The notes under the pieces: generated by a model | The model's database searches: none | What the model saw: only the letters and a program-made list of their open reading frames with translations | What the model was told of the DNA's origin: nothing | Translations under genes and position numbers: made by a program | Assembly: GCF_029338255.1 (NCBI RefSeq) | Contig: NZ_CP119787.1 | Span: 372,001 to 436,000, forward strand | DNA length: 64,000 nt | Origin: Haloarcula halobia | GTDB lineage: Archaea; Halobacteriota; Halobacteria; Halobacteriales; Haloarculaceae | Direction: 5' to 3' | Part shown: positions 2,403 to 19,468 of the stretch, one piece after another | Numbering within the stretch: position 1 is the first letter of the stretch | Layout of the letters: each line of letters opens with the position of its first letter

Positions 2403-2768
2403 ATGCCTGAGTACAGTGAATCAGACCTCCCCTCGGAGACACTCTCGATTAATAGCCGAACATGGCGGCGAGAGAAATTTGACCGTGATGGGTACCAGTG
2501 GATTCGCGAGATGGATGATGACGAATATGACTGGAATCCAGAGACGGATGACGTGTCTCTGGTTGGAACCGACACTCCGATTCGCGCAGTGAACCTGCAG
2601 TTCCTCGATGGAGAGTGGCACGTTGAAGGTGCGGAGACAGCCGGACCAGACTATCATCGTCCGGGATTCACCGAAACCATCAGTAGTGACTTCTCCGCGT
2701 CAGTCCCCGAGGGGTCAGAGGCCGAAGCATTTGAGAAGGTCAAAGAGTTCGCTCGTCGCCTTTCCTGA
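2403..2768 (+). CDS. Hypothetical acidic protein
   Basis: This 121-residue acidic protein starts MPEYSESDLPS. I do not recognise the family. A central region (IRAVNLQFLDGEWHVEGAE) looks like beta strands, and the C-terminal third looks like a helix (AEAFEKVKEFARRL). It contains no cysteine cluster and no membrane segment. It is divergent from int and convergent with the EVE-like gene. Conventional acidic composition and an uninterrupted frame support it as a real gene. Confidence 0.6.
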   Translation: MPEYSESDLPSETLSINSRTWRREKFDRDGYQWIREMDDDEYDWNPETDDVSLVGTDTPIRAVNLQFLDGEWHVEGAETAGPDYHRPGFTETISSDFSASVPEGSEAEAFEKVKEFARRLS

Positions 2769-2802
2769 CTCTGATTCACGGGAGCGAGGGTCCAGAATCC
2801 CC

Positions 2803-3231: not shown

Positions 3232-3232
3232 G

Positions 3233-3997: not shown

Positions 3998-4087
3998 TCG
4001 TGATTGAGTTGTCCCTCCCCTATGATGAATTCTCCGCAGATTGCGGACCGTTAAGTAGGATGAAGCAACATGCAGTGATAGAACACG

Positions 4088-5401: not shown

Positions 5402-6471
5402 TCCGCCGTCGCTTCTTCCGACAACCGACATCCCGCGAACTCTGCAACATCGCTCAAGAATTCGTCCGCCGGTCGAAGTGCGTACGTTAGTTCATCATCG
5501 TCGCTGTATCGTTCCCACACAAACGAATCCCGGGGCACGTAGATACGCCCACCGTCGTCTGCGATAATCTGGAGTTTTTCGCGGCTGATGTCTGCCATCA
5601 TCAGGGATACGAACCAGACCTCATCGGCTCCGATTTCGGACTGACGAGCGAGCGACTGTTTGAACCGTTCGCGGAGCGTCCGCTTGCAACTGAATCCGAT
5701 GGTCGCGTCCGGCCCATCCACGATGTTATCGACTTCGAGGTCCCCGAAATGCTCCGGCACGCCAGTTGCAGGAATTCCGAAACGGCTGAAGACGCGCTGG
5801 AGACCTGTTTCAAGGACGTTGCCTGCCGTTGCCGTCCGACTTTGACCTGCTCTCCGTTCGTATTCTTGTATTATTCCTGATACTATTCGGATAACATCAG
5901 TTTCGCTCCAGTCTGGGTCGTTCTGAAGGTCGTCGAACAACTCACGAAGATACCTGATGAGCACTGCTCGCTGTGCCCCAAGCTGATATGCCTCGCCGTC
6001 CACGTCAACGTCAAACATCGCGTCGAAGGCTTTCGTCGCGTCTATCGTGCCATCTTCGCCTTCCAGAGTATCATCAACAATCTCGTGGATTTCATTTTTC
6101 CCGAAGGAGGGCGTCGTCTTCATTATACGACTCGTTCGAACGACCGCCCGTGCCGCGATGACGAATTCTTCCACGTCCTCACGGTCATCGATACGGTGAA
6201 GGATACGCTCGGTCATGTCCTCCGTCTGGCGGTACTTCTTGCTGATGTCGCCACCGTAGAGCTTGTTAATGGAGTTTCGGATGTGGTCTCGAAGAGTCTC
6301 TTTGAGCGAGTCTACGTCCGCCCCTGCATCTAATTCGTCGGAGAGCTTGTCGGAGAGTTCCTCCAAGGCGTCTGCTTCGTTAGTCGCGTACCCGGAGAAC
6401 CGCGAGGCAACGAGGTCGCGAGCAAACCAGTATGTCTTGTACTCGGCTGGATTCAACTCATCGTCGTCCAT
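5398..6471 (-). CDS. Type II restriction endonuclease candidate, PD-(D/E)XK (EcoRII/PspGI-like)
   Basis: From MDDDELNPAEY the protein has 357 residues; two in-frame Met codons upstream are less likely. The C-terminal half carries a PD-(D/E)XK arrangement: E221 in NVLETGLQRVF, D244/D248 in FGDLEVDN and K263 in IGFSCKRTLRERFKQ. The CK-x-T-x-x-E-R-x-x-Q run resembles EcoRII and PspGI enzymes. The helical N-terminal half (about 1-200) may bind DNA or act as an effector domain. Its TAA stop overlaps the methyltransferase TAG stop at 5398-5401. It should cut DNA unmethylated at the site modified by that enzyme; the cognate pairing is inferred from position. Confidence 0.72.
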   Translation of the reverse strand: MDDDELNPAEYKTYWFARDLVASRFSGYATNEADALEELSDKLSDELDAGADVDSLKETLRDHIRNSINKLYGGDISKKYRQTEDMTERILHRIDDREDVEEFVIAARAVVRTSRIMKTTPSFGKNEIHEIVDDTLEGEDGTIDATKAFDAMFDVDVDGEAYQLGAQRAVLIRYLRELFDDLQNDPDWSETDVIRIVSGIIQEYERRAGQSRTATAGNVLETGLQRVFSRFGIPATGVPEHFGDLEVDNIVDGPDATIGFSCKRTLRERFKQSLARQSEIGADEVWFVSLMMADISREKLQIIADDGGRIYVPRDSFVWERYSDDDELTYALRPADEFLSDVAEFAGCRLSEEATAD

Positions 6472-6714
6472 AGGGTGGTCCAGACATGTTGGGGTCCTAA
6501 ATCTATCCAAATCTGGATACATTAACGCGAAATCGCGTATATGTGGAAATTATCTATGCTGAGTCTTCTACCGGAGCTATGTGGGTTTCAAAACTCATCA
6601 GTCGGTTCACATCTGCTGGTCAGAAAGGCTCTCGACCTGAAATGAAGGGGTTCGGCTGGGGCCCCAAAATAAACCGAAACATCGTCGTGACAACTGCGCT
6701 GGCAGTGGTCTAAT

Positions 6715-7761
6715 TTAGCTTTCATGACCGACACTGAGGTCGCGTATCTCCCCTGTTTTCCGGTAGTGTTGCATATCCTCGGAAAACTCCTCATTCGAGC
6801 GCAAATGGAGTTTCCCGTTGGTCTTGTGTTCGTGGGCTTTCTTTCCTCCGTCTATGTCTGGAACCTGTTGAAGAGTTTTTGGCGGAACGTATGATGCGAT
6901 AGTTGATTTAGCCCATGCCGGGCTCTGCACCGTTCCCTCGAACATACAGTTGTTTACTTCGCTTGGGTCTTGGAAAAATGAGAACAGCACCCACGGAACA
7001 TTATTAGATACGGCACGGCTCGCGCGTTCGCGAGACGCCGCAGACTTGATTTCAACGTTCAATTGGTCAGTGGATGGATTAGCCCTGTAAACTATCGCAT
7101 CTGCATTATCATCGTCCGTATCGAACTCATCGCCTTCAGTAAATCCGTCTGCTACAAGACATCGACTACAGATTACCTCATTTGCGTTGCCAGCCATCGA
7201 TTTTGTTCCGTTGTTCATCGCGGTGACTCGACTGGGGAGTTCCTTCGCACAGATGTGTGCCGTCTCCTCCATCACTCCCTCGATGACATCGCTAAGGCCC
7301 TCTATTGTATCGGGGAATCCATCTTGGAGAGCACGTGACTGGAATTCACGAAGACTTGCTTCAGCATACCGTTCTTTCTCTCGGTCTCCCTCAGCAGTAC
7401 ATGCCTGTTGAACCTCGTTGAGGTTCTGGCTGTTTACTGAATCAACGCCTATAGATTGTGCGCAAAGGTCAACCCACACGTCTGATTTCGGGAACTGACC
7501 TGCAATATGCCAGAACAGGTCAGGATTCCACCTAAAGAGCGCCTTCACTTTTGATTTGAACGGCCCTTTCCCATAGGTGAGACCCCGGTCCTTTGCCAGT
7601 GTAAACGCGTAATCGAAGGAAAGTGGTTTATCTGATTCGTTGACCAGTTCAATAACTATTTTGTAATCATTATACACTCGTGAATCAACACTTTCTTTAT
7701 TTAGAGCATCAGCCAAGTCATCATCATCGGGGAGACTGAACTCTTCGGTATCTCCACTCAT
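6715..7761 (-). CDS. Second PD-(D/E)XK nuclease candidate
   Basis: This 348-residue protein has no firm family match. The C-terminal part shows E195 in GNANEVICSR, D221 in DNADAIVYR and E237-x-K239 in LNVEIKSAASRERA, then a conserved-looking core VPWVLFSFFQDPSEV. This order fits the PD-(D/E)XK fold of type II restriction enzymes. It lies upstream of and in the same direction as the nuclease at 5398-6471 (243 bp between), with no second methyltransferase nearby. It may be a second subunit, an accessory or modification-dependent nuclease, or an orphan restriction enzyme. Confidence 0.5.
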   Translation of the reverse strand: MSGDTEEFSLPDDDDLADALNKESVDSRVYNDYKIVIELVNESDKPLSFDYAFTLAKDRGLTYGKGPFKSKVKALFRWNPDLFWHIAGQFPKSDVWVDLCAQSIGVDSVNSQNLNEVQQACTAEGDREKERYAEASLREFQSRALQDGFPDTIEGLSDVIEGVMEETAHICAKELPSRVTAMNNGTKSMAGNANEVICSRCLVADGFTEGDEFDTDDDNADAIVYRANPSTDQLNVEIKSAASRERASRAVSNNVPWVLFSFFQDPSEVNNCMFEGTVQSPAWAKSTIASYVPPKTLQQVPDIDGGKKAHEHKTNGKLHLRSNEEFSEDMQHYRKTGEIRDLSVGHES

Positions 7762-8034
7762 GCGAGGCTGTTGAAGATGTCTCGTTCTGGGTGGATAGAC
7801 TGAGGACGAGACATCGAGCAGGTCGCGGAATCGCTCTGTCTTCTTTGATTGATGTCGTGAAGACGAATGACCGCATCATCAAATGATTGTGCCATGAGAA
7901 GGTCCAGACATGAGATGGTCCTATTTCTTTCGCATATATTGTAAGATAGAGAAGAGAAAATTTGCCAGTATTTCATCAGGCGTTAAGAAAGCCAATCGCA
8001 AGTATATTTGAAGATGTGTAGTCATCGTTTCGGT

Positions 8035-8265
8035 ATGACACGCTTCAACGCCGGAGACAGGGTACGAATAGATATTCCCGACAAGGACGACCCAGACCAT
8101 GAAAAATATCATGGAAGACAGGGCGAAGTCATCGAAATTTTCGAGGATGCGGCGAGCGATGTGACTGGTGACGAACGCGACAACTTGCTCTACAGGGTAG
8201 AATTCGACGGTGATGAAGAAATGGACTTCAGATGGCGCGACCTCCGTCCCCCGGAGGACACATGA
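8035..8265 (+). CDS. Small SH3-like (KOW/L21e-like) protein
   Basis: The 76-residue reading from MTRFNAGDRVRIDIPD is a compact beta protein: a G-D-R-V-R-I entry strand, H-x-x-Y-H-G-R-Q-G-E-V turn and L-Y-R-V-E-F-D-G-D strands ending in DFRWRDLRP. This matches SH3-like barrels such as KOW or ribosomal L21e-like folds. Nine extra residues upstream (from 8008) are possible, but the internal Met fits the domain start better. Function unknown; it is followed 31 bp later by another small gene on the same strand. Confidence 0.6.
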   Translation: MTRFNAGDRVRIDIPDKDDPDHEKYHGRQGEVIEIFEDAASDVTGDERDNLLYRVEFDGDEEMDFRWRDLRPPEDT

Positions 8266-8296
8266 TGTTTTGATTATTGCACTCGTTGGCAAAGAT

Positions 8297-8521
8297 ATGG
8301 CCGAATACAAGATTGACCTATCGTTTGGTTCTGAAGGAGTGGTTCATTTGCACGTGTTCGACCTTGACGACTTAGAGCCCGGACCAATTGAGACATGCGA
8401 GGTTGGCGAGGATTTAAATACAGAGGCACTCCGGCGGGCTTGGAGTCGGTTCTACGATGGATTCGAGACGCCCGATACGGGCGAGTATCTTGAAGAGAAT
8501 CAGGACGCAGACGAGCTTTGA
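8297..8521 (+). CDS. Hypothetical small acidic protein
   Basis: This 74-residue protein starts MAEYKIDLSFG and ends in an acidic tail. The alternation in YKIDLSFGSEGVVHLHVFDLDDL suggests a beta hairpin followed by a helix (TEALRRAWSRFYDGF). The phrase 'L-R-R-A-W-S/A-x-F/M' also occurs in the C-terminal part of the DUF433 protein at 17735-18445 (DLHAAWAWMFEQGD), so the two may share a small domain. No known function. Confidence 0.55.
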   Translation: MAEYKIDLSFGSEGVVHLHVFDLDDLEPGPIETCEVGEDLNTEALRRAWSRFYDGFETPDTGEYLEENQDADEL

Positions 8522-8632
8522 CCTAGGTAGCCTTGTTGAAACCCTCAACAGATGATAAATTCTATTCCGGTGCGGTCAATACAGGCTATAGCTATATCAG
8601 TATTAATTACAAAATCTTCCTCCTAATTTACA

Positions 8633-8863
8633 TTACTGTGGCCAGACGACAACATCGTTAACGAGAATTTGTCGAACTTGTCCATCACTATCCATATCAA
8701 CTTTCACTACCCTACTACCATCGTTAATTTTCACATCAGCGGATTCATCAGACATTTCGACCTGCAAGTCAGCGGTCCCTGAATTAGCAACCAGTTCTGC
8801 CATCATGGCGCGACCGTTCGTTTTCGTGCTAGTTAGGGTATTTAGAGTGATTTCGCCGGGCAT
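8633..8863 (-). CDS. Hypothetical small protein, beta-rich
   Basis: This 76-residue acidic protein begins MPGEITLNTLTSTKTNG and looks mostly beta (ADLQVEMSDESADVKINDGSRVVKVDMDSDG). No cysteines and no membrane segment. It is isolated in an AT-rich stretch between two other small genes. Family not recognised; the acidic composition supports it being real. Confidence 0.5.
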   Translation of the reverse strand: MPGEITLNTLTSTKTNGRAMMAELVANSGTADLQVEMSDESADVKINDGSRVVKVDMDSDGQVRQILVNDVVVWPQ

Positions 8864-9038
8864 ACATTCTCATTATTCCGGGTGGAGATAATATCACCGC
8901 TCTCATTTGGCAGATACGCACATCTTTTCCCGACTGTTTCACACGGGAACCCACCCTAAAAATAGGATTTCAACAGAGCCGACTGGCTGTAATGGTCATT
9001 TCGGTTTCATTCGATTCAGTGAGGCACGAATGCGGTTT

Positions 9039-9383
9039 CTATTCAAACTGTTCTTTCTGGCCCTTGATAATCGAAAGCGTAGCGGCATTCTTAGTCTCGA
9101 ACTTGTCGCCATCATAGACCGGGAGTTCAATATCTTCTTCCCTGCCTTGGAGAAGTCGGTTCTTACACCAGAGAGCCACACATGCGACACAAGCCCCTAA
9201 CACGATTGGCAGTTTCAGGCCTTGGAGTTCCTTCACATCCACATCAAGTAACTCAGTAAGACCACTACCAATTGCTTGGATGTTGAGTTTCCCGGCATGC
9301 CTCGCAACCCGAGCTAATATAGGTTCAACGCGTCTGTAAGTCTCTTCTGAGAGAACCAGATTCCCTTTGTGGAAACGGTTCAT
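9039..9383 (-). CDS. Hypothetical small membrane protein
   Basis: From MNRFHKGNLVLSEET the protein has 114 residues; an alternative start at 9407 adds eight. One hydrophobic segment (LPIVLGACVACVALWC) follows an amphipathic region and precedes a basic/acidic cytosolic tail. It faces the gene pair at 9564-10392, with a strong inverted-repeat operator between them, which suggests shared control. Function unknown. Confidence 0.5.
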   Translation of the reverse strand: MNRFHKGNLVLSEETYRRVEPILARVARHAGKLNIQAIGSGLTELLDVDVKELQGLKLPIVLGACVACVALWCKNRLLQGREEDIELPVYDGDKFETKNAATLSIIKGQKEQFE

Positions 9384-9419
9384 AACGACAGTGGGTGTCA
9401 CGAGCACTTGAGTTTCTCG

Positions 9420-9457
9420 CTCAGTTTGGGATTCTTCTCGTAGACTCCCAAACTGAG
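9420..9457. promoter_or_regulatory. 12-bp inverted repeat operator, with a third half-site at 9513-9527
   Basis: ctcagtttggga (9420-9431) and tcccaaactgag (9446-9457) are perfect complements with 14 bases between them. A third copy, agactcccaaactga, is at 9513-9527. All three lie between divergent genes at 9383 or 9407 (leftward) and 9564 (rightward). This is the layout of an operator for a dimeric repressor controlling both directions. Confidence 0.6.
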
Positions 9458-9563
9458 CCCCGTTTTACCCCCTATATCGAACCAATATCGGCCTGAATGA
9501 TGGGTGTATTGCAGACTCCCAAACTGAAGGAACACTCATATAATTGGAAGCTAATTGATAATT

Positions 9564-9749
9564 ATGGCGAAGGCCCTCTTCTACCCGTTCCACAAACTGT
9601 GGCACAAGCACGACGAGACATGCCCCGAATGTTCCCCGCTCCCGATGGGCGAAATCGAACTGTTCCCGAACGAGGTGGTGATTCGGATGAAGCCGCGCGC
9701 CGAAGACCTGTTCAAGAACTGCTACAAGAACGATTCCAACGATGAGTAA
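9564..9749 (+). CDS. Small protein co-translated with the second recombinase
   Basis: This 61-residue protein starts MAKALFYPFHKLW and has an H-x3-C-x2-C arrangement (HKHDETCPEC) that may bind zinc. A TATA-like catataat lies about 25 bases ahead, fitting a leaderless start. Its stop overlaps the start of the next gene by eight bases (9742-9749), so translation is probably coupled. A partner or directionality role for the recombinase is possible but unproven. Confidence 0.55.
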   Translation: MAKALFYPFHKLWHKHDETCPECSPLPMGEIELFPNEVVIRMKPRAEDLFKNCYKNDSNDE

Positions 9750-10392
9750 ACCCGAATCCAAGAAGTCCGTGGTGCATCGCTATATCAACATCCGAGAGGT
9801 AGACCTGCTCCGGGACGCCGCACACGACCGAAACCTCCGATACGACTCGCTGGGCCGTCGCCTGCGTGATGAGGTACTCATCGTACTGGCCATCGACCTT
9901 GGTCTCCGCGCCAACGAGCTACGTCAGTTGAAGAAGACGATGTTTCGACTGGAGGATGGAGAAGTCGTCCTTCCCGGGCACGTGCAGAAGGATTACCCGA
10001 GGGAAGACATCACTCCGGGAGCGGTTACGATGCGCCTCGACCCGTACGGCCACTTCGGGACAGTCCGCCTGCTCCGCTCGTACTTCCAGAGTGAATGGTA
10101 CCGCGCCCGGGAGAGTGAGTATGTGTTCCCGAGCCGTCAGAGCGCGGTGATGTCGAACCAATCCATCCGCAACGTGGTTGAAGACCTCGCCGTCCACGCG
10201 GACGTTACGGTTTACCGTTCCGATGGAGAGCCCGCCGCCCCGTCAGAATTGCACCCTCATGCATTCAGACACTCCCTAGCGAACTATATGCTGGCCGACG
10301 AGGAGACCCGGCTTGTGGACGTACGGAACAGATTGCGGCACAGGTCCGTAAATACGACTGAGAGAGTTTACGACCACTTCCAGCGGCGTTGA
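9742..10392 (+). CDS. Tyrosine recombinase, short catalytic-domain form
   Basis: This 216-residue protein has the complete catalytic set: R56 in IDLGLRANEL, H172-A-F-R175, H199 in LRHRSVNTTERVYDH and nucleophile Y209. It lacks the usual N-terminal core-binding domain (typical XerC/D proteins have about 300 residues), so it is a reduced enzyme. It lies mid-element, far from either attachment core, and is unlikely to be the integrase. Resolution of element multimers or inversion of a nearby segment are alternatives. Confidence 0.8.
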   Translation: MSKPESKKSVVHRYINIREVDLLRDAAHDRNLRYDSLGRRLRDEVLIVLAIDLGLRANELRQLKKTMFRLEDGEVVLPGHVQKDYPREDITPGAVTMRLDPYGHFGTVRLLRSYFQSEWYRARESEYVFPSRQSAVMSNQSIRNVVEDLAVHADVTVYRSDGEPAAPSELHPHAFRHSLANYMLADEETRLVDVRNRLRHRSVNTTERVYDHFQRR

Positions 10393-10398
10393 GAGATT

Positions 10399-10701
10399 TT
10401 AGTCCTCTTCCTGCTCCTGATATACCTCTTCGATTCGCTGAACGGCGTGGAGGTCATGCCGGAAATACCACCGACCATCCTCGGGTTTGTAGACCGCTAT
10501 TTCCTTGTCTTCTGAATCAGGTCGATACCAGACATCAGGATGTTCTCCGAGGACGCGTTCGATTCGTTCCTCTTTTTTGTCACTACTACAATCGTTGCAC
10601 AGCAAACGCATCGGCTGGCGAACACCAATCATATAGGGCGCGTCGTAAGTGACCCCGCACCTGTTGCACTCTCGTTCTTCTGTATAGTACTTACTAGGCA
10701 T
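10399..10701 (-). CDS. Small zinc-ribbon protein
   Basis: This 100-residue protein starts MPSKYYTEERECNRCG. Two C-x2-C pairs (CNRC and CNDC, about 24 residues apart) form a zinc ribbon. The C-terminal part (VWYRPDSEDKEIAVYKPEDGRWYFRHDLHAVQR) is beta-rich. It is convergent with the recombinase gene, seven bases apart. Function unknown; nucleic-acid or protein binding is common for such ribbons. Confidence 0.6.
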   Translation of the reverse strand: MPSKYYTEERECNRCGVTYDAPYMIGVRQPMRLLCNDCSSDKKEERIERVLGEHPDVWYRPDSEDKEIAVYKPEDGRWYFRHDLHAVQRIEEVYQEQEED

Positions 10702-10874
10702 ATGAGACCCAGTACACGGCACTCAAATGAATGTCTATTGGATTTTCACTTACTCAAACCGAGTGAATGTCCGACTATGACAGCTGGGGTGCCTGTCCAC
10801 ACCTCGCTAGCAAAACCGCGCCACACAATTGATGCACGACGCGGGGACTCGCCTGAAAGCTCACGAAACGTACT

Positions 10875-11039
10875 CTATTCTGGCCAGTCTTCGAGTGTTG
10901 CGTTCGCCCGAGCAGTCAGTTCTCTCTCAACGTACCCGCCGAGGTCGTCAAGCGTGTGGATGTCCGTTGATTGCACGAATTCAACGATGTCCTCTGGGAG
11001 TGAGTCAGGTGGGTCGGGATGGTCCATGTCATCGGCCAT
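10875..11039 (-). CDS. Hypothetical 54-residue acidic protein
   Basis: It starts MADDMDHPDPPDSLP and continues as two predicted helices (EDIVEFVQS and DDLGGYVERELTARANATL). Short proteins of this style are common in haloarchaeal plasmids. Its promoter region contains the element-specific CTGAATGAG motif as an inverted pair (11086-11119) and an array of cacgtac repeats (11131-11178). The gene at 17365-17610 has a similar upstream region. Confidence 0.55.
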   Translation of the reverse strand: MADDMDHPDPPDSLPEDIVEFVQSTDIHTLDDLGGYVERELTARANATLEDWPE

Positions 11040-11446
11040 GACCTGATTCCGCGTTTGTCGAGGATAATGCCGGGGGACGCATCGCTCTGAATGAGGTGGG
11101 GGTGGAGACCTCATTCAGACCGGTTTTTGATACGAACGTATGCACGTACGTAGCCACGTACACCACTCTACACACACGTATGTCATACTTCCTATGATTA
11201 TATTATGTGCCCCCAGTGAACGTGTTTTCTAGGAGGTCATAGTCCCGCCCGAAATTAAGAATTCTACTGTGGCTCGAATAGATACGCAGTCACTGTTTCC
11301 TACCGGGTGTAGAATTTGGCTTGAATTCTTACCCTCTTAGGATAGCTCTATAATCAACGACCTGCGTATATTTTCAGTTTCCCCAGACAACGGTCTTCAA
11401 CCATTATTGGGAGAAGCCTTATACATATATCATCCTGAGCGAATGT
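11040..11446. promoter_or_regulatory. 407-bp intergenic region with motif pair and GTACGT array
   Basis: No gene is evident. It holds tctgaatgaggtggg (11086-11100) facing acctcattcaga (11108-11119), then repeated (c)acgta/gtacgt units between 11131 and 11178 (tatgcacgtacg, tagccacgtac, cacacacgta). The part from 11200 to 11420 is AT-rich and ends in a TATA-like ttatacatatat just before the gene at 11447. Confidence 0.5.
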
Positions 11447-11683
11447 ATGGTTCCCAAAACCGACGCTGACGTTGATAAAGCCCATCCAGTGCCAAGTATG
11501 GAAGTTTCAAAAGACCACACGCAAGTCTCGTGGCGACCCTTCGGGGCTGTTGAGTGCAGTGAGTGTAAGCAGACCAAGCAGTCTGGTGGACGCCTCCGAC
11601 TCCGTGAGGCTGGTGAGGTCAAACCTCATTACGATGGACTCGTCTGCGAGAACTGCAAAGACGGCCTCATCAATTATGAATGA
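11447..11683 (+). CDS. Small zinc-finger protein
   Basis: This 78-residue protein starts MVPKTDADVDKAHP. CSEC and CENC, 26 residues apart, form a likely zinc-binding site around a basic loop (GGRLRLREAGEVKPHYDG), like HNH- or ribbon-type small proteins. A TATA-like ttatacatatat about 23 bases upstream fits a leaderless transcript. Its stop overlaps the next start by eight bases, so the pair is an operon. Confidence 0.6.
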   Translation: MVPKTDADVDKAHPVPSMEVSKDHTQVSWRPFGAVECSECKQTKQSGGRLRLREAGEVKPHYDGLVCENCKDGLINYE

Positions 11684-12050
11684 GCAAGCACCGTGCGACC
11701 ACAAGTTCACAAAAACCGGCGACACCACTGATGTGGCCGAACTCACTGAGGAATTATTTGCTGAGGAAATCGACACAGTAGCGGATGAGCACGATGTGTC
11801 TCGTAATGAACTCACAAAAGTAGTTGCCTCCGACCTCGGCTTCTGGGTTCCGACAGACCGAAGTTATGTTGACGACGACGTAGCGATTGTACTCGGCACT
11901 CACAAGGAACTGACCGTCCCTGACACATACCGAGATGCCGTACAGCGTGTCCACAATCGTGCGGCTGAACGTATTACTGCCGACTCTGACTGGAACGTGG
12001 CCGAACAAACAGAAGTCTACGTCGCACCGCGTGAACTCCAAGGTCGTTAA
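11676..12050 (+). CDS. Hypothetical acidic protein, second gene of pair
   Basis: This 124-residue protein starts MNEQAPCDHKFTKTG. It is acidic, with helix ELTEELFAEEIDTVADEHDV and a later helix YRDAVQRVHNRAAERI. Translation is probably coupled to the upstream zinc-finger gene through the eight-base overlap at 11676-11683. No family is recognised. Confidence 0.55.
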   Translation: MNEQAPCDHKFTKTGDTTDVAELTEELFAEEIDTVADEHDVSRNELTKVVASDLGFWVPTDRSYVDDDVAIVLGTHKELTVPDTYRDAVQRVHNRAAERITADSDWNVAEQTEVYVAPRELQGR

Positions 12051-12225
12051 GCAAAGCACCTCTTAGTCAATCAATCCGTTTGTCAGATAGTAGATGTGAG
12101 GGAGATATTGTAATGAGTCTTCGTCTCCGGCCTTTCAGCGTGACGACGCGAAATTCATCTTCCGCCCTCACATACGTATCACCAAGTTAATCTACCTCGC
12201 TCACTGGATAAATCAAGATAAGTAG

Positions 12226-12233
12226 TTATATAT
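12226..12233 (+). promoter_or_regulatory. TATA box for the gene at 12258
   Basis: ttatatat is centred about 28 bases before the ATG at 12258, the standard distance for a leaderless haloarchaeal transcript. This supports the ATG over the in-frame GTG at 12246. Confidence 0.5.
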
Positions 12234-12257
12234 CGTTCATATTTCGTGTCGGACAGT

Positions 12258-12572
12258 ATGGAGAAAGACAGCGATGAGATGCCTGCCCTGCGCGATGTGT
12301 GGACCGAAGAGAATCCGTATCAAGAAACAGAACAAGATGTGTTCTTAGAGTGGGAGAACGGGGCACAGGCTCACGTACACATTACCGAGACTCTGGAGTA
12401 CGCGCTCACAGTACGCTGGCCTGATGGCGGCGTCGCTGGGACAGAACCGCTGGCCAGCGAAACCAGTTCCGCGTTTGGTGCCTTGAGAACCCTGAATGCT
12501 GTTCTGGCTCAAGACGAGAATAGACGGCTCCGCGATGAGTATCCCGCCGTCCACGCGGTGTTGACGCCGTGA
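12258..12572 (+). CDS. Hypothetical acidic protein
   Basis: This 104-residue protein starts MEKDSDEMPALRDVW; a GTG start at 12246 would add four residues. It is strongly acidic with a beta-like core (DVFLEWENGAQAHVHITETLEYALTVRWPDGG) and a C-terminal helix (FGALRTLNAVLAQDENRRLRDEY). Family not recognised. Two copies of the CTGAATG motif follow its stop codon. Confidence 0.55.
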   Translation: MEKDSDEMPALRDVWTEENPYQETEQDVFLEWENGAQAHVHITETLEYALTVRWPDGGVAGTEPLASETSSAFGALRTLNAVLAQDENRRLRDEYPAVHAVLTP

Positions 12573-12900
12573 GATTAGTATCAAATTCTTGCTCTGAATG
12601 GGGTGTGTTGCGGTCTGAATGAGGTGTGTCCCCAGTGCAACCCAAACAATCCGGGCACCCCGGGAAGCACCCATGTAGTGGATGATTTGCGTCATCTCCG
12701 GCGGCCCTGCCAAATGCCGGGCACTCTGTTATCGTGGTCACCCCATCCCGCACGCGATACGAGGGTACCCTCCATAGAGAGGGGTCGTTAGTTCCCTCAG
12801 ATAACAGATGAAATCGGTGAGATAACATCTGATAATAAACGCATCTCACCGAACTCATATGTTATCAATACATTTGCACCTTGATTCCCTCATCTCCAAT
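12573..12900. promoter_or_regulatory. 328-bp intergenic region with CTGAATG pair and GATAACA operator
   Basis: tctgaatggggtgtgt (12593-12608) and tctgaatgaggtgtgt (12614-12629) are tandem copies 21 bp apart. Further right, agataacagatg (12799-12810), agataacatctg (12820-12831) and the inverted tgttatca (12860-12867) repeat, together with a perfect 10-bp inverted repeat tcggtgagat / atctcaccga (12814-12823 and 12843-12852). This lies directly before the winged-helix gene at 12901 and is its likely autoregulatory operator. Confidence 0.55.
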
Positions 12901-13287
12901 ATGTACCCCAAACACGAGCGGATTCTGGGCGCACTACAGTTGCTCGACGGGGCGGCCAGTATCGATGAACTTGCACGGGCAAGCGGTATCTCGAATCGTG
13001 ACATCAACAATTCCTTGCGAACTATCGAACCAGAGTTCGTCACCATTACTGGAACAAAGTCACGCCGAGGCGACCGCCGCGATGACCCGAAGATGCTCCG
13101 ACTGACCGACGAAGGCCACGAAGTAGCAAAGGAGGCGTCAGTGAAGCTATACGAAGACAAGCCAACCGTTGCGTTGCATGAGACGATGAACCGACTGAGG
13201 GCGCGTGTTACCGCAATCGAGGATGCTCACGCCGCGCTGGAGAAAGAGAATCGAAAACTCAAGCGTATTCTCCTCGACGAACTCTGA
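12901..13287 (+). CDS. Winged-helix regulator with C-terminal coiled coil
   Basis: From MYPKHERILGALQLL the protein has 128 residues; an upstream Met at 12859 is possible but lies inside the operator. Residues about 1-75 form a winged helix (SIDELARASGISNRDINNSLRTI, then MLRLTDEGHEVA). Residues about 85-125 form a coiled coil (MNRLRARVTAIEDAHAALEKENRKLKRIL), which fits a dimeric transcription factor. The inverted repeats ahead of it suggest autoregulation. Confidence 0.7.
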   Translation: MYPKHERILGALQLLDGAASIDELARASGISNRDINNSLRTIEPEFVTITGTKSRRGDRRDDPKMLRLTDEGHEVAKEASVKLYEDKPTVALHETMNRLRARVTAIEDAHAALEKENRKLKRILLDEL

Positions 13288-13443
13288 AAAAGGTCTGTTG
13301 TCCAGTAACAGTTGGAATATTACCCCAGCACAGCATGTACTCAGTCCTTTCTCAGTAGGGCGAAAACTGAAAAGCGAAATTTCAAGGCCAAGTTACGGGA
13401 CTAAGAGCATTTTTGTTGTATGAGTTTTCCAATTCCTTCTCTC

Positions 13444-13482
13444 AACGTGAGACCGTCACGCTTGACGTGAGAGGCTCACGTT
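13444..13482. promoter_or_regulatory. Inverted and direct CGTGAG repeats upstream of the large winged-helix gene
   Basis: aacgtgag (13444-13451) and ctcacgtt (13475-13482) are exact complements, and a direct acgtgaga copy lies between them (about 13465-13472). The array sits about 70 bp ahead of the gene at 13551. It could be an operator or part of a plasmid-type replication origin for the element. Confidence 0.45.
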
Positions 13483-13550
13483 TCAATCTGCCGACACATA
13501 TTTGCCATAATACACGAACTAGTCAGTAACCGATTGATGCTTTCCCAGAA

Positions 13551-15311
13551 ATGGGGTGTCACAGCACCCCTCTAGCGTCGGTCGGGAATCCCTCCCTACA
13601 TGGGATGACCAACATGATAGAAGACGCGCACGAGCCGCATATATCTAGCGGCACTGATACAGCAGAATCGCCTCAGAACAACAGTTTTTCCACTGAATCG
13701 AAGGTTTTCTCCCGGGGCACGACTCACGGGTGTGACATCTGGTTCCAGATTAACGATAAGGGCCGCCTCCACCGCGAACTTTCTTCGCTCTGTCGTAACC
13801 TCGACCAAAGCACGGGTCACGCTTCGTCAAGCAACAACCCGCACAAGCTCGGTCGTCTCAACGGTAGCTGGACGGCAAGTAGTGATTATCAGGACGTTGG
13901 CCTCTTCCCGAGCGGCGTCGAGTACGGCTCGCAAGGTAATTCGGGAAACTGGACACAGAATGACTGCCATGTGCTCAATCTCTACGACAGTATCTGTCGA
14001 GGCTCTTCAGGTATTGCGGACAACGCTCGGAAACTCCGAGTCGAAGTTCACGAGCGGGCGGATGGACTTGTGTACGAAGATGGAAATGAGTATTCGTGGC
14101 CTGCTGGGTGGCAGACTGAACAACAATATGAGGGAACCGCGATTCGCATTCAAGCGTCGTACGTCTTTGACCTGTACGAGACTATTCGTCACGCGTTCGA
14201 GTATCTATTAGTCGCATTCAGCAAAGCGAGGGCCAAACGATACGCTCGGGACATCATCCACGAGACTGTTCGCTTCAGTGGTCTCGAACTGCATCATCGC
14301 CACCATCTCCGTACGAAGGATGCAACTGTCCAGACCCTTCGAGATTCGGCCCGTCTAGTCGTGTCCGGTGACGCGAGCGGGAAAGAGAAGGCAACTGTTG
14401 AGCGCGGTCACTACCAAATCTATGCGTTTTCGACGACGAATCTTGGAGCAATTGGGTTCGATACGGATATTACGTATGAGCTTCCGAATGGGGAATCTCG
14501 GACCGAATCAGTTCCGAAGCACTACCTGAAGGAGTATATGCATGAGGAGGCTCACAGCTTCTCCGACTCGCACGCCTTGGCCCACCCGAAGCTGGAGGTC
14601 AAACACCGGGGTGCGTTTCCCGCACCCGCATGGGACGCGATGGTTGAACACCTCCACGAGGTCCTGCACGCGCACATCGAGTGGGCGGGCATCACCGAAG
14701 ACGACCTCATAAGTGACGAGTGGTACACTCCCGGAGAACCCATCGAGACAGCGACCCCAGAGGATTACAAAATCAAACTCCGCGAGTACTTCGAAAGTGA
14801 CGGACTCCAGCGGACAGTCATCGGGATGCTGTTCGAGCGCCAGACGATGGCCATTCACGACATCCTCCACCTCGTGGTTCGCAACAGCCGTAACAACCGT
14901 ATTAGCTACGACGAACTCGCGGAACTTACTGGACTTAGTAAGAGCACCATCGGGAGACATGTGGCCGAGTTGGAAGGACATCAACTCGTCTTACGAGACC
15001 ACCAAGGCCGTGCGGGAATGTGGGTTACAGTCACCGAGTACGCGAAAAAGAAGGTCGGTGGCCTGCTTGACAAGATGCGGACTTGCGGGGATGTACTTCG
15101 TGACATCGCCTCGCGAAAGGAACAGCGCAAGAGGGACGCACCCGCGAAGCGCCGGGCGCAAGATAAGGCCCAGCAGAAGTCAGAGTCGGAATCCGACCAG
15201 TCTACACTAAAACCGAGTGACCCGTGGACACCGGAAAAGACTCCGCGTGACCGCTACCTTGGTGAGCAGACAAAACGGAGAGTCTCGGATGACAACCTCG
15301 GCCCACCATAG
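13551..15311 (+). CDS. Large winged-helix protein, candidate element replication/regulatory protein
   Basis: This protein has 586 residues (568 if it starts at the ATG at 13605). Most of it is unfamiliar to me. Around residues 430-505 there is a clear winged helix: NNRISYDELAELTGLSKSTIGRHVAELEGHQLV followed by a wing. The C-terminus (about 530-586) is a charged, probably disordered tail rich in K, R, Q and S. It is the largest protein of the element and lies beside an inverted-repeat array. Large haloarchaeal plasmid proteins with this winged helix are often replication-related, but I see no polymerase, primase or relaxase motif. Confidence 0.6.
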   Translation: MGCHSTPLASVGNPSLHGMTNMIEDAHEPHISSGTDTAESPQNNSFSTESKVFSRGTTHGCDIWFQINDKGRLHRELSSLCRNLDQSTGHASSSNNPHKLGRLNGSWTASSDYQDVGLFPSGVEYGSQGNSGNWTQNDCHVLNLYDSICRGSSGIADNARKLRVEVHERADGLVYEDGNEYSWPAGWQTEQQYEGTAIRIQASYVFDLYETIRHAFEYLLVAFSKARAKRYARDIIHETVRFSGLELHHRHHLRTKDATVQTLRDSARLVVSGDASGKEKATVERGHYQIYAFSTTNLGAIGFDTDITYELPNGESRTESVPKHYLKEYMHEEAHSFSDSHALAHPKLEVKHRGAFPAPAWDAMVEHLHEVLHAHIEWAGITEDDLISDEWYTPGEPIETATPEDYKIKLREYFESDGLQRTVIGMLFERQTMAIHDILHLVVRNSRNNRISYDELAELTGLSKSTIGRHVAELEGHQLVLRDHQGRAGMWVTVTEYAKKKVGGLLDKMRTCGDVLRDIASRKEQRKRDAPAKRRAQDKAQQKSESESDQSTLKPSDPWTPEKTPRDRYLGEQTKRRVSDDNLGPP

Positions 15312-16078
15312 GTCGAATCATTACCCCGGGGTCGCGGGACTCCTGAGCGACAGCTATCTCTTTTTGAGGTGGTTTCCGATAGTACGAGGGCATTCTCGCC
15401 CAATTTCTCACCAAATCCTCAAAGTGAAGGTCTCGAATGCCGAGTTTTCGTGCAAGACCTTGGTGCATCTGATAAACTGGACGTGAAAGCATGATTGTTC
15501 GATAGAGGTAAAATGGCAAATTTCGGGCTTTCTATGCCTTGTACGCGGGGTTTGGTGATGAAAATGTGGCACGTTCCTGTGCCAGTCCCCCTTAGACTAT
15601 TGCGGCTAACAAAGGACGGGCAGGGCCGGTCCCGTTGGAGTCGCACTTGTTCGAAGTCAGGGCACGTTGGACACCACATCAAATATGGCATGTAGCCGCC
15701 GAAATTCTTAGAAAAATAAAAACCGCTGTGATTTATCGTATCTCCCGGCTGTCCACGATGAGATGCGATGTGGCCCGCCAGTGAGTTGCCTCGGTTGAGT
15801 TTGGCACGATGAAGAATCGGCAGGTAATGGCACGGGAAAAGCATACATGATGACGTTCGTCACGACCGAGACCGAAGATTCCGGCGTGGTCGTGAAGCAG
15901 GTGACGAGTCGATAAAGGACTCGCGCATGGGCGACCTGATGGCTCGATACGACGAGGAGACATACGAGGTGGTTCGGACAGCACTGACATACAAGGTTGA
16001 CGGCGTACTCGTGACCGTCCAAGAGCCATCCATCGTTACGAGAGGTATGCTTATTTTACACCATATTGACGAGTTCAT
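15312..16078. other. 767-bp stretch without a convincing intact gene
   Basis: Two fragments look protein-like but are not in one sound frame. On the reverse strand, from 15694, MPYLMWCPTCPDFEQVRLQR leads into CHIFITKPRVQGIE, and another frame then carries MLSRPVYQMHQGLARKLGIRD (to about 15340). On the forward strand, 15927 onwards reads MGDLMARYDEETYEVVRTA with no stop before the next gene. These may be remnants of decayed genes. A TATA-like ttatttta near 16052 serves the gene at 16079. Confidence 0.4.
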
Positions 16079-16735
16079 ATGGATATGGAGAGACCCAACC
16101 CACCGGATGGAGTCCGCGACCTCAACAGTCAGCCAGCGGTGGCGAGCGACCGGCGACTGCTCGACCTGCGTGACAAACTGGAGGTGGGCTTGCCCGATGA
16201 GGTGTTCGACGACCTTTCCCGGTGGCCGATGCCTGATGAACCCGAAGCTGAGCAAGACGACGCGTATCGTGAGCGGGCGCTGGCGTACGTCAAGGAGTGT
16301 ATTGAGTACCGCGAGACTATCCGTCCAGATTCGCTTCGCGCGCCCGAGGAACTGCCCGAGGAGGTAGAGCGAGTGACGGCGGGAGCGTGGGTGTGGTATC
16401 ACGGCGACTATGAGGTGGAACACTCACGCCCTGAGACCGATGCGAAGGACGTGGAGGCTGGGAAGTACCTGCTGTTCGCGCCGGGGGACGCGCGGGTGCT
16501 TGAGGATGTTGTGCTGGAGGAGTTTCAGCAGAGGCCGTACACAGGGGCGAAGCTCCCGACGAAGCCGGGGAAGAAAGAAGACTGGGTGCTGTGTCTCTAC
16601 CAGCCAGATAACCGCTACTGGTACGATGTGAAGGACGCTCACCACAACGAACCGACGGTGCGATTTCGGGGATTCAAGACGAATGCGGCCACGAAACGCG
16701 GAGACTACTCCGACCGCTTCGAGAACGCCCAGTAA
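16079..16735 (+). CDS. Bles03/DUF1917-like protein (putative phosphothreonine-lyase fold)
   Basis: This 218-residue protein has a TATA box about 27 bases upstream. The C-terminal 115 residues (AWVWYHG, then GKYLLFAPGDARVLEDVV, AKLPTKPGKKEDWVLCLYQ and FRGFKTNAATKRGDYSDRF) resemble the Bles03/DUF1917 family, annotated in haloarchaea as a putative phosphothreonine-lyase-like domain. The N-terminal 90 residues are an acidic helical region. Catalytic activity is unproven. It is not a typical mobile-element function, so it is cargo of unknown benefit. Confidence 0.55.
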   Translation: MDMERPNPPDGVRDLNSQPAVASDRRLLDLRDKLEVGLPDEVFDDLSRWPMPDEPEAEQDDAYRERALAYVKECIEYRETIRPDSLRAPEELPEEVERVTAGAWVWYHGDYEVEHSRPETDAKDVEAGKYLLFAPGDARVLEDVVLEEFQQRPYTGAKLPTKPGKKEDWVLCLYQPDNRYWYDVKDAHHNEPTVRFRGFKTNAATKRGDYSDRFENAQ

Positions 16736-16802
16736 CGCCTGAACTCTTACTGGGACATATTCAACGTGCTTGTCGTGGGGGACTGCGACGTACGGTGGGC
16801 GG

Positions 16803-17201
16803 CTATTTTTCTCTACGTTCTTTCTCTAACAGAACACCGGAATCACAGCCTTTCTCATCGGTCGAATTCGTCCAGTCGTCGGTCACGGTCCAGCTACTTC
16901 CCTCTGACAAGCAAGTAACGAGGCTCTCCTCATCCATGTCATATAGCGCCGCCTCAAGAACACGGGACGCGGGTACATCCTCTTCGAACGCCGCCTGCAC
17001 CCTCTCTACGCGTTGCATCAGCCCGCGAAACGGGGTGGGTTCAGTCTCAACCTCGACGATGACGCAACTCACGCCGTCACGGTGGTCTAACCACTGGTCA
17101 TTATTGGGGTCAACATGCATCGTCTCGTATCGTCGGTAGTCTATGTCGAAAGACATCAACTTCTCCGATGCGCTGGGTAGTAAAAAATCTATGTCAGACA
17201 T
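16803..17201 (-). CDS. Hypothetical acidic protein
   Basis: This 132-residue protein starts MSDIDFLLPSASEK. It has a beta-like centre (GVSCVIVEVETEPTPFRG), a helix (LMQRVERVQAAFEEDV) and the block AALYDMDEESLVTCLSEGSSWTVTDDW. No family is recognised. It is divergent from the winged-helix gene at 17365 and shares the GTACGT-rich intergenic region with it. Confidence 0.55.
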   Translation of the reverse strand: MSDIDFLLPSASEKLMSFDIDYRRYETMHVDPNNDQWLDHRDGVSCVIVEVETEPTPFRGLMQRVERVQAAFEEDVPASRVLEAALYDMDEESLVTCLSEGSSWTVTDDWTNSTDEKGCDSGVLLEKERREK

Positions 17202-17204
17202 TTG

Positions 17205-17288
17205 AGTTGATGTACTTGAGTACGTTTGTTCGTACGTACACCGGCACGTACATGGGTACGTACGCCCGAATCTACGGACCTGAATGAG
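17205..17288. promoter_or_regulatory. GTACGT repeat array plus CTGAATGAG motif
   Basis: Repeated gtacgt/cacgtac units occur at about 17213-17271 (gtacttgagtacg, cgtacgtac, cacgtacatg, gtacgtacg), followed by cctgaatgag at 17279-17288. The same two motifs occur in the same order ahead of the leftward gene at 10875-11039. Shared architecture implies one regulator acting on both, inside the element. Confidence 0.5.
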
Positions 17289-17364
17289 AATCGTCTAATT
17301 CATGCCAGCCAACATGAGTGCTCTCTTATACATCTACATCGTACCCACATTTGGAGAAGAAGAA

Positions 17365-17610
17365 ATGACCCTCAGAGATTCCGTTTGGCACGCCGTGATG
17401 AAGCAGTTAATAAAAACCGGCCAATTCCGCATCAGCGACCTGCCGTTCAACGAATCACAGCGTACCACCGTCCGCAGGACGCTCCGAGAGATGGAGAAGC
17501 AGAAATGGCTCTCCCGCGAAAGCGACCGCGCGGCTACGTGGCGTATGGGCGAGTTAGCTGAGCTTCACCTGAATGTCTCCGCTGACAAAATAAAGGCGGC
17601 TAAGGCATAG
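17365..17610 (+). CDS. Small winged-helix DNA-binding protein (right copy)
   Basis: This 81-residue protein starts MTLRDSVWHAVMKQL, preceded by a ggag at 17353; an ATG at 17302 would add 21 residues but is unlikely. It is a paralogue of the protein at 683-928, sharing G-Q-F-[KR]-I-S-D-L-P-F and T-V-R-R-T-L-R-E-M. Having one copy near each end of the element may reflect duplication or two modules brought together. Probable role: binding short operators within the element. Confidence 0.75.
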   Translation: MTLRDSVWHAVMKQLIKTGQFRISDLPFNESQRTTVRRTLREMEKQKWLSRESDRAATWRMGELAELHLNVSADKIKAAKA

Positions 17611-17734
17611 TCTGACTCGTTAACCCCCGCCGTGTCAGACTGGGACGGCCATTAGAGGTCTCAGCATCGTCCTGATTCTCATGAGAAAACTCGTCTATCG
17701 CTAGGTCCCGGACCCATCATCCGGTCCGAGACGC

Positions 17735-18445
17735 TCACACCTCGCCGCCGAGGACGGCCAGCGCGTTACAGTAACCTTGGAGCTTAGCCTCCATCTCAGG
17801 TGAGAGGTCATCTCGGTCTTGATAGGGTTCAAGCAGGCGACGGACGCGGGCGCGAGCGTCATCAAGGTCCGTGGGGTCGTCTAAATCATCGAGCAAATTG
17901 TTGATGTCTTCAAGATTCTCCTCATCGTCAAGGAGGTGCTGGCGCTCCTCGATGGTAGCTCGGTCGTCGGAGCCATCGGAGTCTGACCGGTCGCCCTGCT
18001 CAAACATCCACGCCCACGCCGCGTGAAGGTCCCGCTCGCTATATCCGTCGGGCAGGTCGTCGATGTCGATTGTTGCCGTCGCGATGGCCCCGGGCTCATC
18101 GGCATCCCGGTCGAAGACAGAGAGCCTTGGTCCGCCTCGCCTGCTATCGAACGATACGTCTATGTGAAGTGGCGTGTCTCGGGGCTTACTACTGCGCTCG
18201 ACGGCCTCGGGAAAATCCACCGCGAAGTGAAGCGCGGCTCTAACCTGTTCCTCGCTCAGGTGCGGATAAATCTTCTTGCCAGCGATGTCTTTGATGCCGA
18301 ATCCAGCACGATAAAAATCCAGTATGTGATAGACTGCGATACGATGCCCGTCCAGCCGGGGCGAGCCGCCCAGCGTGTCCCGTGTCGATATGATGTCGAT
18401 TACCTCATCATCGATGTTGTAGCTGGCCTCGGGGAAATCTGGCAT
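17735..18445 (-). CDS. DUF433-domain protein with long acidic C-terminus
   Basis: From MPDFPEASYNIDDEV the protein has 236 residues. Residues about 15-80 (IISTRDTLGGSPRLDGHRIAVYHILDFYRAGFGIKDIA, then YPHLSEEQVRAALHFAVD) are a DUF433 domain, a small HTH-like domain usually found alone as the antitoxin of a PIN-like toxin. No toxin gene is adjacent. The remainder holds a DLHAAWAWMFEQGD segment and a very acidic tail (EENLEDINNLLDDLDDPTDLDD type). It may be a stand-alone regulator or a remnant of a toxin-antitoxin pair. Confidence 0.72.
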   Translation of the reverse strand: MPDFPEASYNIDDEVIDIISTRDTLGGSPRLDGHRIAVYHILDFYRAGFGIKDIAGKKIYPHLSEEQVRAALHFAVDFPEAVERSSKPRDTPLHIDVSFDSRRGGPRLSVFDRDADEPGAIATATIDIDDLPDGYSERDLHAAWAWMFEQGDRSDSDGSDDRATIEERQHLLDDEENLEDINNLLDDLDDPTDLDDARARVRRLLEPYQDRDDLSPEMEAKLQGYCNALAVLGGEV

Positions 18446-18558
18446 ACCCTTCGTTCGATGACTACTGACAAAAGAGCGCCGCACAGTTAATCGTCCGCTG
18501 GAGCGAACCTGTGGTCAGAGAAGAGTTGATGAGCGTTCTGAATGAGGGGTGGGTTACG

Positions 18559-18864
18559 TCAGGTCCGCGCCTGCTGGATGCCTTTCTTGATGTCCTCAAT
18601 TACCTGCTGGAGATTGTATCCCTCGGCGGGCCGGACTGAGTAGAAGTCTAACCAGACGGTCTGAGTCTCCGGTTCAAGATTGTAGTGGATGTTGTATCCC
18701 CGGAACGGTCCGATAGTAATGAAGACGCGCCACTGGTCGTTGATGGCGTCTGCAACCCGCGTCGCGGTCTCCAGTTCGCCCCGGTTGAATTCTGGGCTTT
18801 TATAAAACACACGGGAATGGTTAGTGGCCGTTACGTTCGTCGAGTCGTTATCTACTTGACTCAT
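18559..18864 (-). CDS. Hypothetical protein
   Basis: This 101-residue protein starts MSQVDNDSTNVTATN. It has a mixed alpha/beta look: helix GELETATRVADAINDQW, strand VFITIGPFRGYNIHYNL, strand QTVWLDFYSVR and helix LQQVIEDIKKGIQQ. Family not recognised. A CTGAATGAGG motif copy (18537-18553) follows its stop. It is the last protein gene before the tRNA and the right attachment site. Confidence 0.55.
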   Translation of the reverse strand: MSQVDNDSTNVTATNHSRVFYKSPEFNRGELETATRVADAINDQWRVFITIGPFRGYNIHYNLEPETQTVWLDFYSVRPAEGYNLQQVIEDIKKGIQQART

Positions 18865-19043
18865 ACTCGGACCAACGAAAAACCCATGTATATACTCTGG
18901 TATCTTGCTGAAAGCCCCGATAACAGCGTTTAGAAGGCATCTATTCTCATTTTGGCAGTCAGTGGACTTGTCGTGGAACTGGTCGCATCCAGTGTATCCA
19001 TCGACAAACCAGTCGCTTACAGAGATTGTAGATGGAAGAAGTA

Positions 19044-19116
19044 TAGTCCTAGCTGGATTCGAACCAGCGTCATCGGCCCCAGAAGCCGATAGGATTGGCC
19101 ACTACCCTATAGGACT
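19044..19116 (-). tRNA. tRNA-Gln(CUG), intact copy carried by the element
   Basis: This reverse-strand tRNA is 73 nt long. The acceptor stem is AGTCCTA/TAGGACT with discriminator A, the D arm is identical to that of the split host gene, the anticodon stem is TCGGC/GCCGA around loop TTCTGGG (anticodon CUG), and the T stem is GCTGG/CCAGC around TTCGAAT. All stems pair. It lies 177 bp inside the right attachment core, so it travels with the element. It probably replaces the host gene destroyed by integration. Its anticodon and T stems differ from the host copy by paired changes. Confidence 0.93.
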
Positions 19117-19132
19117 GCACCATATTTGCTAG
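19115..19132 (+). repeat. Element-end repeat, copy 2
   Basis: ctgcaccatatttgctag overlaps the 5' edge of the intact tRNA-Gln and shares 13 bases (ccatatttgctag) with copy 1 at 568-580. It is either an arm-type integrase site or part of the tRNA promoter. Confidence 0.5.
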
Positions 19133-19180
19133 GGTTTCAGTTTCCCATTTCGCTTTCTTGTATTACCGGTTTGACACCGG

Positions 19181-19198
19181 CCCGACCTTATTTGCTAA
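19181..19198 (+). repeat. Element-end repeat, copy 3, beside a long hairpin
   Basis: cccgaccttatttgctaa differs from copy 1 at two positions. Just to the right, a stem with arms gagtt/aactc and gttgcc/ggcaac folds at 19204-19236. The region 19117-19292 contains no gene. Confidence 0.5.
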
Positions 19199-19292
19199 GG
19201 TTCGAGTTTGTGTTGCCGGTGAAGGCAACCGAACTCAATCAGCCCTTGGGACTTGACCGTTTTAGGCGCTTTGAAACGCCATGTATCCCGTT

Positions 19293-19308
19293 GCCCCCAG
19301 AAGGCTTC
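19293..19308 (-). repeat. attR core, 16-bp direct repeat
   Basis: This gcccccagaaggcttc is identical to attL at 539-554 and continues rightward into the 5' half of the host tRNA-Gln. The sequence to its left belongs to the element and does not restore the tRNA 3' half. Confidence 0.9.
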
Positions 19309-19334
19309 AGGATTGGCCACTACCCCATGGGACT
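19293..19334 (-). pseudogene. tRNA-Gln(CUG), 5' half of the split host gene
   Basis: On the reverse strand it starts AGTCCCATGGGGTAGTGG and runs through the D arm into the anticodon stem-loop, then leaves the tRNA at the core. Together with 508-554 it gives a complete tRNA. Its own promoter region lies to the right, in host DNA, so a truncated transcript may still be made. Confidence 0.9.
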
Positions 19335-19468
19335 GCTGCACCCACGTCTACCCGGTGGTCCCTTGTAAGCGTTGCGCGATGGAATCGGGCGTGTCATACG
19401 CCAGCAGACGGCGCATCGACCGGCCGGACATCGACACCGCTTTGCCACGCTGTGTGCCACAGTCGCGT

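Follow-up and report, generated by a model that had tools for sequence, protein, structure and literature searches.

Probable tRNA-dependent integration of a mobile element at the tRNA-Gln(CUG) gene of a haloarchaeon

In a haloarchaeal genome of 3.48 Mb, the host tRNA-Gln(CUG) gene is interrupted by an 18.8-kb element. The sequence shows that recombination took place in the anticodon loop of the only tRNA-Gln(CUG) gene of the host, at a junction that left no tRNA, and that the element carries a complete, structurally intact tRNA-Gln(CUG) beside attP and on the same strand. Very probably, we are dealing with tRNA-dependent integration by an archaeal mobile element, in which the carried tRNA would rescue the host from the loss of its own gene. 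The locus lies in a 64,000-nucleotide stretch of DNA (contig C1, 372001-436000), all of which is referred to below as the window. The tRNA-Gln gene of one relative, G052, is identical to that of Halomarina halobia, which points to a probable place in the family Haloarculaceae.

The split host gene and its empty site

The features that define the integration are as follows:
539-19308, no strand assigned: integrative element of about 18.8 kb, with 16-bp repeats at both ends and an empty site in the same-genus genome G023
19293-19334, minus strand: 5' part of the host tRNA-Gln(CUG) at attL, identified by sequence and by an upstream flank that is contiguous in relatives
19293-19308, minus strand: attL 16-bp core GAAGCCTTCTGGGGGC, a repeat shared with attR
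539-554, minus strand: attR copy of the same 16-bp core
508-554, minus strand: displaced 3' part of the host tRNA-Gln, core included, called as tRNA-Gln(CUG) by ARAGORN when joined to the 5' part
19044-19116, minus strand: element-borne, complete tRNA-Gln(CUG), the replacement tRNA (ARAGORN; Rfam RF00005)

The core GAAGCCTTCTGGGGGC is common to both halves of the host gene (19334-19293 and 554-508). At attL, the 5' part continues into GGGGGCAACGGGATACATGG with no T arm, acceptor or 3' half, and the core together with the next bases, AAC, forms an anticodon stem of mixed origin, GAAGCC/GGCAAC, in which two positions are A.A mismatches. No tRNA was called by ARAGORN at the attL junction alone, nor at attR, while the joined host flanks gave a tRNA-Gln(CUG); the element is therefore placed at 539-19308, with 19044-19116 inside it. 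The same reconstruction bears out the expectation that precise excision would restore the host gene. Thus attB overlaps the host tRNA gene, as seen in both the rebuilt gene and the empty site; the common core is short (16 bp), and a functional tRNA is rebuilt at neither junction, whereas classical identity-segment integration leaves an intact tRNA at one of them.

In same-genus genomes, the upstream flank runs unbroken into the 5' part of an intact tRNA-Gln. The uninterrupted site is found in G023, with one tRNA-Gln and with flanks that are 92% identical over 1533 bp upstream and 91% identical over 1281 bp downstream. The G023 tRNA-Gln is 99% identical to the rebuilt host gene, including an unusual GAAGG T stem that was seen in no other same-genus genome among the matches listed. 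It lacks one base of a G run, which may be an assembly error given that this assembly is 90% complete. A second tRNA-Gln(CUG) was absent from the 24 other same-genus genomes searched. Since the empty site holds one tRNA, the carried tRNA is not an old host gene, in agreement with the original prediction, which had assigned it to the element and not to the locus before integration.

The carried tRNA

The carried gene was detected by Rfam (RF00005, 59 bits, E 1e-10) and by ARAGORN, and is the sole tRNA in the left 21 kb of the window according to both. It lies 176 bp from the attL core, on the same strand as the broken host gene. Of its 73 positions (numbered here by counting along the 73-nt gene), 15 hold a base other than that of the rebuilt host gene. 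Fourteen of these differences make up seven fully compensated pairs, all still Watson-Crick: 27-45, 28-44, 29-43 and 31-41 near the anticodon, 50-64 and 51-63 in the T stem, and 6-67 in the acceptor stem. The remaining one is unpaired base 9. There are no differences in the D arm, anticodon loop or T loop, and the A1-U72 pair, an identity feature of archaeal tRNA-Gln, is retained. Both parts of the earlier description thus stand, namely that the D arm and anticodon loop of the host gene are kept and that the anticodon and T stems and one acceptor pair differ while remaining paired. The seven compensated pairs are the pattern of a tRNA under selection, whatever its source.

The carried tRNA matches the 16-bp core at 11 of 16 positions, and all five mismatches fall in the arms, none in the 7-base anticodon loop. 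Its arms read ATCGGC/GCCGAT. Those of the host are GAAGCC/GGCTTC, and those of the second type common among haloarchaea are GTTGCC/GGCAAC; bases 27, 31, 41 and 45, which these two main target types have in common, are all altered in the carried tRNA. With its arms altered, the carried tRNA should be a poor integrase target, provided that the overlap region is formed by the 7-base anticodon loop, as is usual for such integrases (PMC8371274). The original prediction had linked selection for function to loss of the integration core; compensated stems and broken core arms are indeed found, and the stem changes may or may not have been selected to remove the target.

Copy number and expression

Among the 44 tRNA genes of the genome, the carried copy is the one intact tRNA-Gln(CUG), which agrees with the claim that it is not redundant; the other tRNA-Gln is UUG and contains an intron. 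In 24 host ORFs, glutamine is encoded by 280 CAG and 29 CAA codons, so that CAG makes up about 91% of glutamine codons. The UUG tRNA-Gln might read CAG in part by wobble, and the CUG gene may therefore not be strictly essential.

Copy number was also surveyed in 391 haloarchaeal genomes of at least 90% completeness, using a 5' and a 3' half-gene pattern for tRNA-Gln(CUG). The gene is present in almost all genomes examined, and no second tRNA-Gln(CUG) was seen with these patterns in the other 390. Extra 5'-pattern matches in three genomes (G208, G218 and G304) were rejected as second tRNA-Gln genes, being no tRNAs, and second 3'-pattern matches elsewhere were, among the matches listed, sequences unlike tRNA stems. 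In three of the 391, all drafts (G164, G309 and G321), the CUG gene was not found by patterns and BLAST. In another genome (G144, contig C3), the tRNA-Gln(CUG) has an intron after the anticodon, inside the integrase-core region, which would also destroy the target; the anticodon arm of the tRNA-Gln of G006 looks similarly interrupted.

One feature bears on expression:
19364-19377, minus strand: GCGCAACGCTTACA, a promoter motif of haloarchaeal tRNA-Gln genes that is conserved across many genera, here upstream of the broken gene

In many genera, tRNA-Gln is preceded by this motif at a distance of about 30 nt; within the window, the motif occurs only upstream of the broken gene. It points at the carried tRNA, which is on the same strand about 250 nt downstream, and no T run longer than three occurs between the core and the carried tRNA. 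The carried gene is without its own copy of the motif. Transcription from the surviving host promoter is thus likely on the basis of this arrangement, with the TATA-like TAATACAA, nearer the carried tRNA, as an alternative promoter candidate.

The integrase and the failed rebuild

The element encodes its own integrase:
962-2170, minus strand: tyrosine integrase of 402 aa, related to HSTV-2-like haloviral integrases (PF00589, PHROG integrase and phage matches)

The protein is full length and aligns throughout with its relatives. Identity to the integrases of HSTV-2, HRTV and HSTV-4 viruses is 28-30%, and the nearest integrases are found in haloarchaeal genomes, at 46-48% in G155, G317, G373 and G450 (tRNA-His) and at 41% in G189 (tRNA-Glu). 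These adjoin displaced 3' parts of tRNA-His or tRNA-Glu at attR. At the opposite end stands an intact tRNA that shares their core and 3' part; G155 and G189 have it on the same contig, and in draft relatives the rebuilt tRNA was located on other contigs or across a contig break. Because the relatives rebuild their tRNA, the anticodon-loop target is a property of the integrase group, and the failure to rebuild is peculiar to this element. Its attL right arm, GGGGGCAACG, fits a GTTG-type tRNA-Gln and mispairs with the GAAG arm of the host, at the two A.A positions. From this, we infer an origin of the element in GTTG-type hosts; unable to rebuild the GAAG-type gene, it would persist by means of a whole carried tRNA.

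In G317 (contig C3, 18500-19250), four more displaced tRNA-His 3' pieces lie downstream of the first, three of them repeating every 111 bp; they resemble the remains of repeated integrations or of a tandem duplication.

The architecture of attP

Four elements of attP were recognised:
19212-19229, minus strand: GTTGCC-6 nt-GGCAAC, which mimics the anticodon arm of a GTTG-type tRNA-Gln (12/12 arm match; 0/400 shuffles)
19185-19197, minus strand: putative arm-type site TAGCAAATAAGGT (repeat match)
19119-19131, minus strand: putative arm-type site TAGCAAATATGGT, 2 nt upstream of the carried tRNA (repeat match)
567-579, minus strand: putative arm-type site TAGCAAATATGGT, across the attP core from the other two (repeat match)

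Three exact copies of TAGCAAATAWGGT are present and flank the attP core on both sides, against a chance expectation of 0.19 matches in the window within two mismatches. AT-rich motifs resembling these arm-type sites are also present near the cores of relatives. In this element and the five related ones, both 6-bp arms of the target anticodon stem recur without mismatch about 79-101 bp past the core, inside the attL end, and are separated by a 6-nt spacer; such copies arose in none of 400 shuffles for each element, and the stems track the target (His, Glu or Gln). Because the four His elements are related to one another, these amount to three independent cases. The mimic of the present element is GTTG-type and not GAAG-type, which agrees with the proposed origin in GTTG hosts. 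Its spacer is one base shorter than the recombining loop (6 instead of 7), and it may therefore bind integrase without recombining. No description of such an anticodon-arm mimic was found in a literature search, and to our knowledge none has been reported for tyrosine integrases.

Proposed mechanism

In the proposed mechanism, strand exchange by the tyrosine integrase would take place in the 7-base anticodon loop, TTCTGGG, with the help of 6-bp arms of the form GNNGCC. The right arm of attP and the mimic would both derive from a GTTG-type tRNA-Gln, so that joining to a GAAG-type host would give a mispaired and useless hybrid. The carried tRNA would replace the lost host tRNA, probably being read from the surviving promoter upstream of the latter. 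Because both of its core arms are changed, it would neither recombine with the attL core about 200 bp away nor receive a second element. Precise excision would restore the host gene exactly as the rescue tRNA leaves, and imprecise loss of this end would leave the cell without a CUG tRNA-Gln, so retention would be favoured. A tentative extension, which we consider possible but rather doubtful, is that the carried tRNA uncouples integration from tRNA rebuilding, allowing one attP to serve both GAAG and GTTG hosts, and that the non-recombining mimic binds integrase and controls recombination.

Alternative explanations

Two other histories of the locus could be hypothesized. In one, 19044-19116 is a second, tandem host gene that predates integration, as its closeness to the core (just 176 bp) and its location on the same strand might suggest. 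This is extremely improbable: the gene lies inside the 16-bp repeats, putative integrase arm sites separate it from the core, one tRNA is present at the empty site of G023, and none of the 24 other same-genus genomes has two. In the other, nested or successive elements are involved, and the tRNA is the rebuilt attL tRNA of an earlier, decayed element. The repeated displaced 3' pieces in G317, which suggest repeated integrations, and a second recombinase gene at 9742-10392 would fit such a history, but a rebuilt attL tRNA should have the host 5' flank and promoter directly upstream, where an arm-type site is found instead, and we regard this reading as very unlikely. It is also unlikely, if somewhat less so, that the carried tRNA is a dispensable or silent passenger in a host living on its UUG tRNA-Gln. 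Some archaea have a single tRNA-Gln(UUG), the CUG gene was not found in three of the 391 haloarchaea, and the carried tRNA has no conserved promoter motif of its own; however, seven pairs changed with compensation and none was broken, almost all haloarchaea examined have a CUG tRNA-Gln, and CAG dominates the glutamine codons.

A carried tRNA that rescues the host could itself have been acquired in two ways, and the chances are about even that it was taken up whole from a haloarchaeon with a non-target stem, in which case the loss of the core would be a by-product and the rescue role unchanged. Such a donor is conceivable because some haloarchaea naturally have stems of this kind: tRNA-Gln with G31-C41 occurs with GTCGG, GTCAG and GCGAG stems, and the nearest known tRNA, from Halegenticoccus tardaugens, has a GTCGG stem and matches at 64 of 73 positions, compared with 58 of 73 for the host gene. 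Against whole acquisition, no tRNA was found with the exact ATCGG stem, and the four bases shared by both target types (27, 31, 41 and 45) are all changed. A viral source is not favoured, because haloviral tRNA-Gln (HVTV-1, 76%) and plasmid tRNA-Gln (Halobaculum and Salinibaculum) are less similar than chromosomal ones. Scans of viral contigs for the integrase, tRNA-Gln(CUG) and the exact anticodon arm gave nothing real, the one viral match to the exact arm being a chance hit in a protein gene. The plasmids of Salinibaculum KK48 and Halobaculum halophilum carry tRNA-Gln genes that are absent from the listed annotation (PLSDB annotation lists no RNA genes), and one of the two genes adjoins a LAGLIDADG gene.

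Relation to known systems

tRNA-dependent lysogeny has been described in mycobacteriophages (Fionnbharth, cluster L and Gaia; Guerrero-Bustamante and Hatfull 2024, PMC10865867). The present element resembles that system in having a tyrosine integrase, an attB in a single-copy tRNA gene, a short core and a tRNA that is not rebuilt, in carrying a same-isotype tRNA that diverges from that of the host, and in having related integrases, there with long cores, that do rebuild the gene (PMC10865867). The nearest match to the Fionnbharth tRNA-Lys is 88%, in other species, and the nearest match here is also 88%. The differences are the archaeal host, an 18.8-kb element with restriction-modification genes and no phage structural genes found, a core of 16 bp instead of 8-10, and a carried tRNA that lies beside attP on the host-promoter strand, whereas the tRNA of Fionnbharth has its own promoter (PMC10865867). 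No virus structural gene was recognised in Pfam and PHROG scans of the main ORFs, there was no DNA match to phages, and the whole element had no relative in plasmids or phages. It was thus not identified as a temperate phage; hence, it is said to work like tRNA-dependent lysogeny and not to be a lysogen.

In the Rhizobium phage vTRX32-1 group, described in 2021, a 12-bp core is the point at which tRNA-Leu is split, and a phage tRNA-Leu without this motif takes its place, which was proposed to prevent super-integration (PMC8631192). That proposal is nearly the idea of the original prediction; it differs in concerning a bacterial phage and the isotype Leu, and, in the passages considered, in having no stem-by-stem analysis (PMC8631192). 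The principle is thus already known from these two precedents. Among archaea, HSTV-2-like integrases and classical tRNA integration share the integrase family and the tRNA target (PMC8371274). According to a 2021 review of archaeal recombinases, integration of mobile genetic elements reconstitutes an intact tRNA gene (PMC8371274); classical elements rebuild it at one junction, and the present one does not. The Caldiarchaeum tRNA-Thr(GGU) locus, also in an archaeon, has a 5' tRNA fragment and a complete same-isotype tRNA with a recombinase between them (Sugahara 2012, PMC3293823). Its authors attributed it to a normal pNOB8-type integration, in which the gene was rebuilt and gained an extra intron, followed by homologous recombination, and it differs from the present case in not being a carried full tRNA (PMC3293823). 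No earlier archaeal case of an element-carried replacement tRNA was found in a literature search with most subscription papers outside its scope. What looks new here is the archaeal, non-phage case and its likely cause, an attP arm from a GTTG-type tRNA-Gln that is unable to rebuild the gene of a GAAG-type host.

tRNA-dependent integration would thereby be extended to archaea and to a non-phage element, with a likely originating step in which a host with a mismatched tRNA stem is entered by an integrase group whose target is normally rebuilt. This may be one reason why mobile elements carry whole tRNA genes. In such elements, tRNA addiction is predicted to act alongside restriction-modification in holding the host, and others could be spotted by a testable rule: a broken tRNA gene together with a same-isotype, core-free tRNA inside the element.

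Other genes of the element

Further genes of the element, besides one for a DUF433 protein, are:
683-946, minus strand: small winged-helix-like protein beside the integrase, a candidate excisionase (paralogue of 17302-17610, plus strand, 55% identity)
3233-3997, minus strand: HhH-GPD protein matching the PADLOC type II nicking endonuclease model (profile match and PADLOC)
4088-5401, plus strand: C5 cytosine DNA methyltransferase, type II restriction-modification (PF00145, E 9e-67; PADLOC MTase_II)
9742-10392, strand not given: second small recombinase (profile match)
13551-15311, plus strand: winged-helix protein with DUF7845, regulator or replication-initiation-like (profile matches)

The two paralogous small winged-helix proteins lie near the two ends of the element, and one of them may be the excisionase. 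In the type II restriction-modification neighbourhood (3233-7761), the proteins at 5398-6522 and 6715-7761, which are without family matches, may be nucleases.
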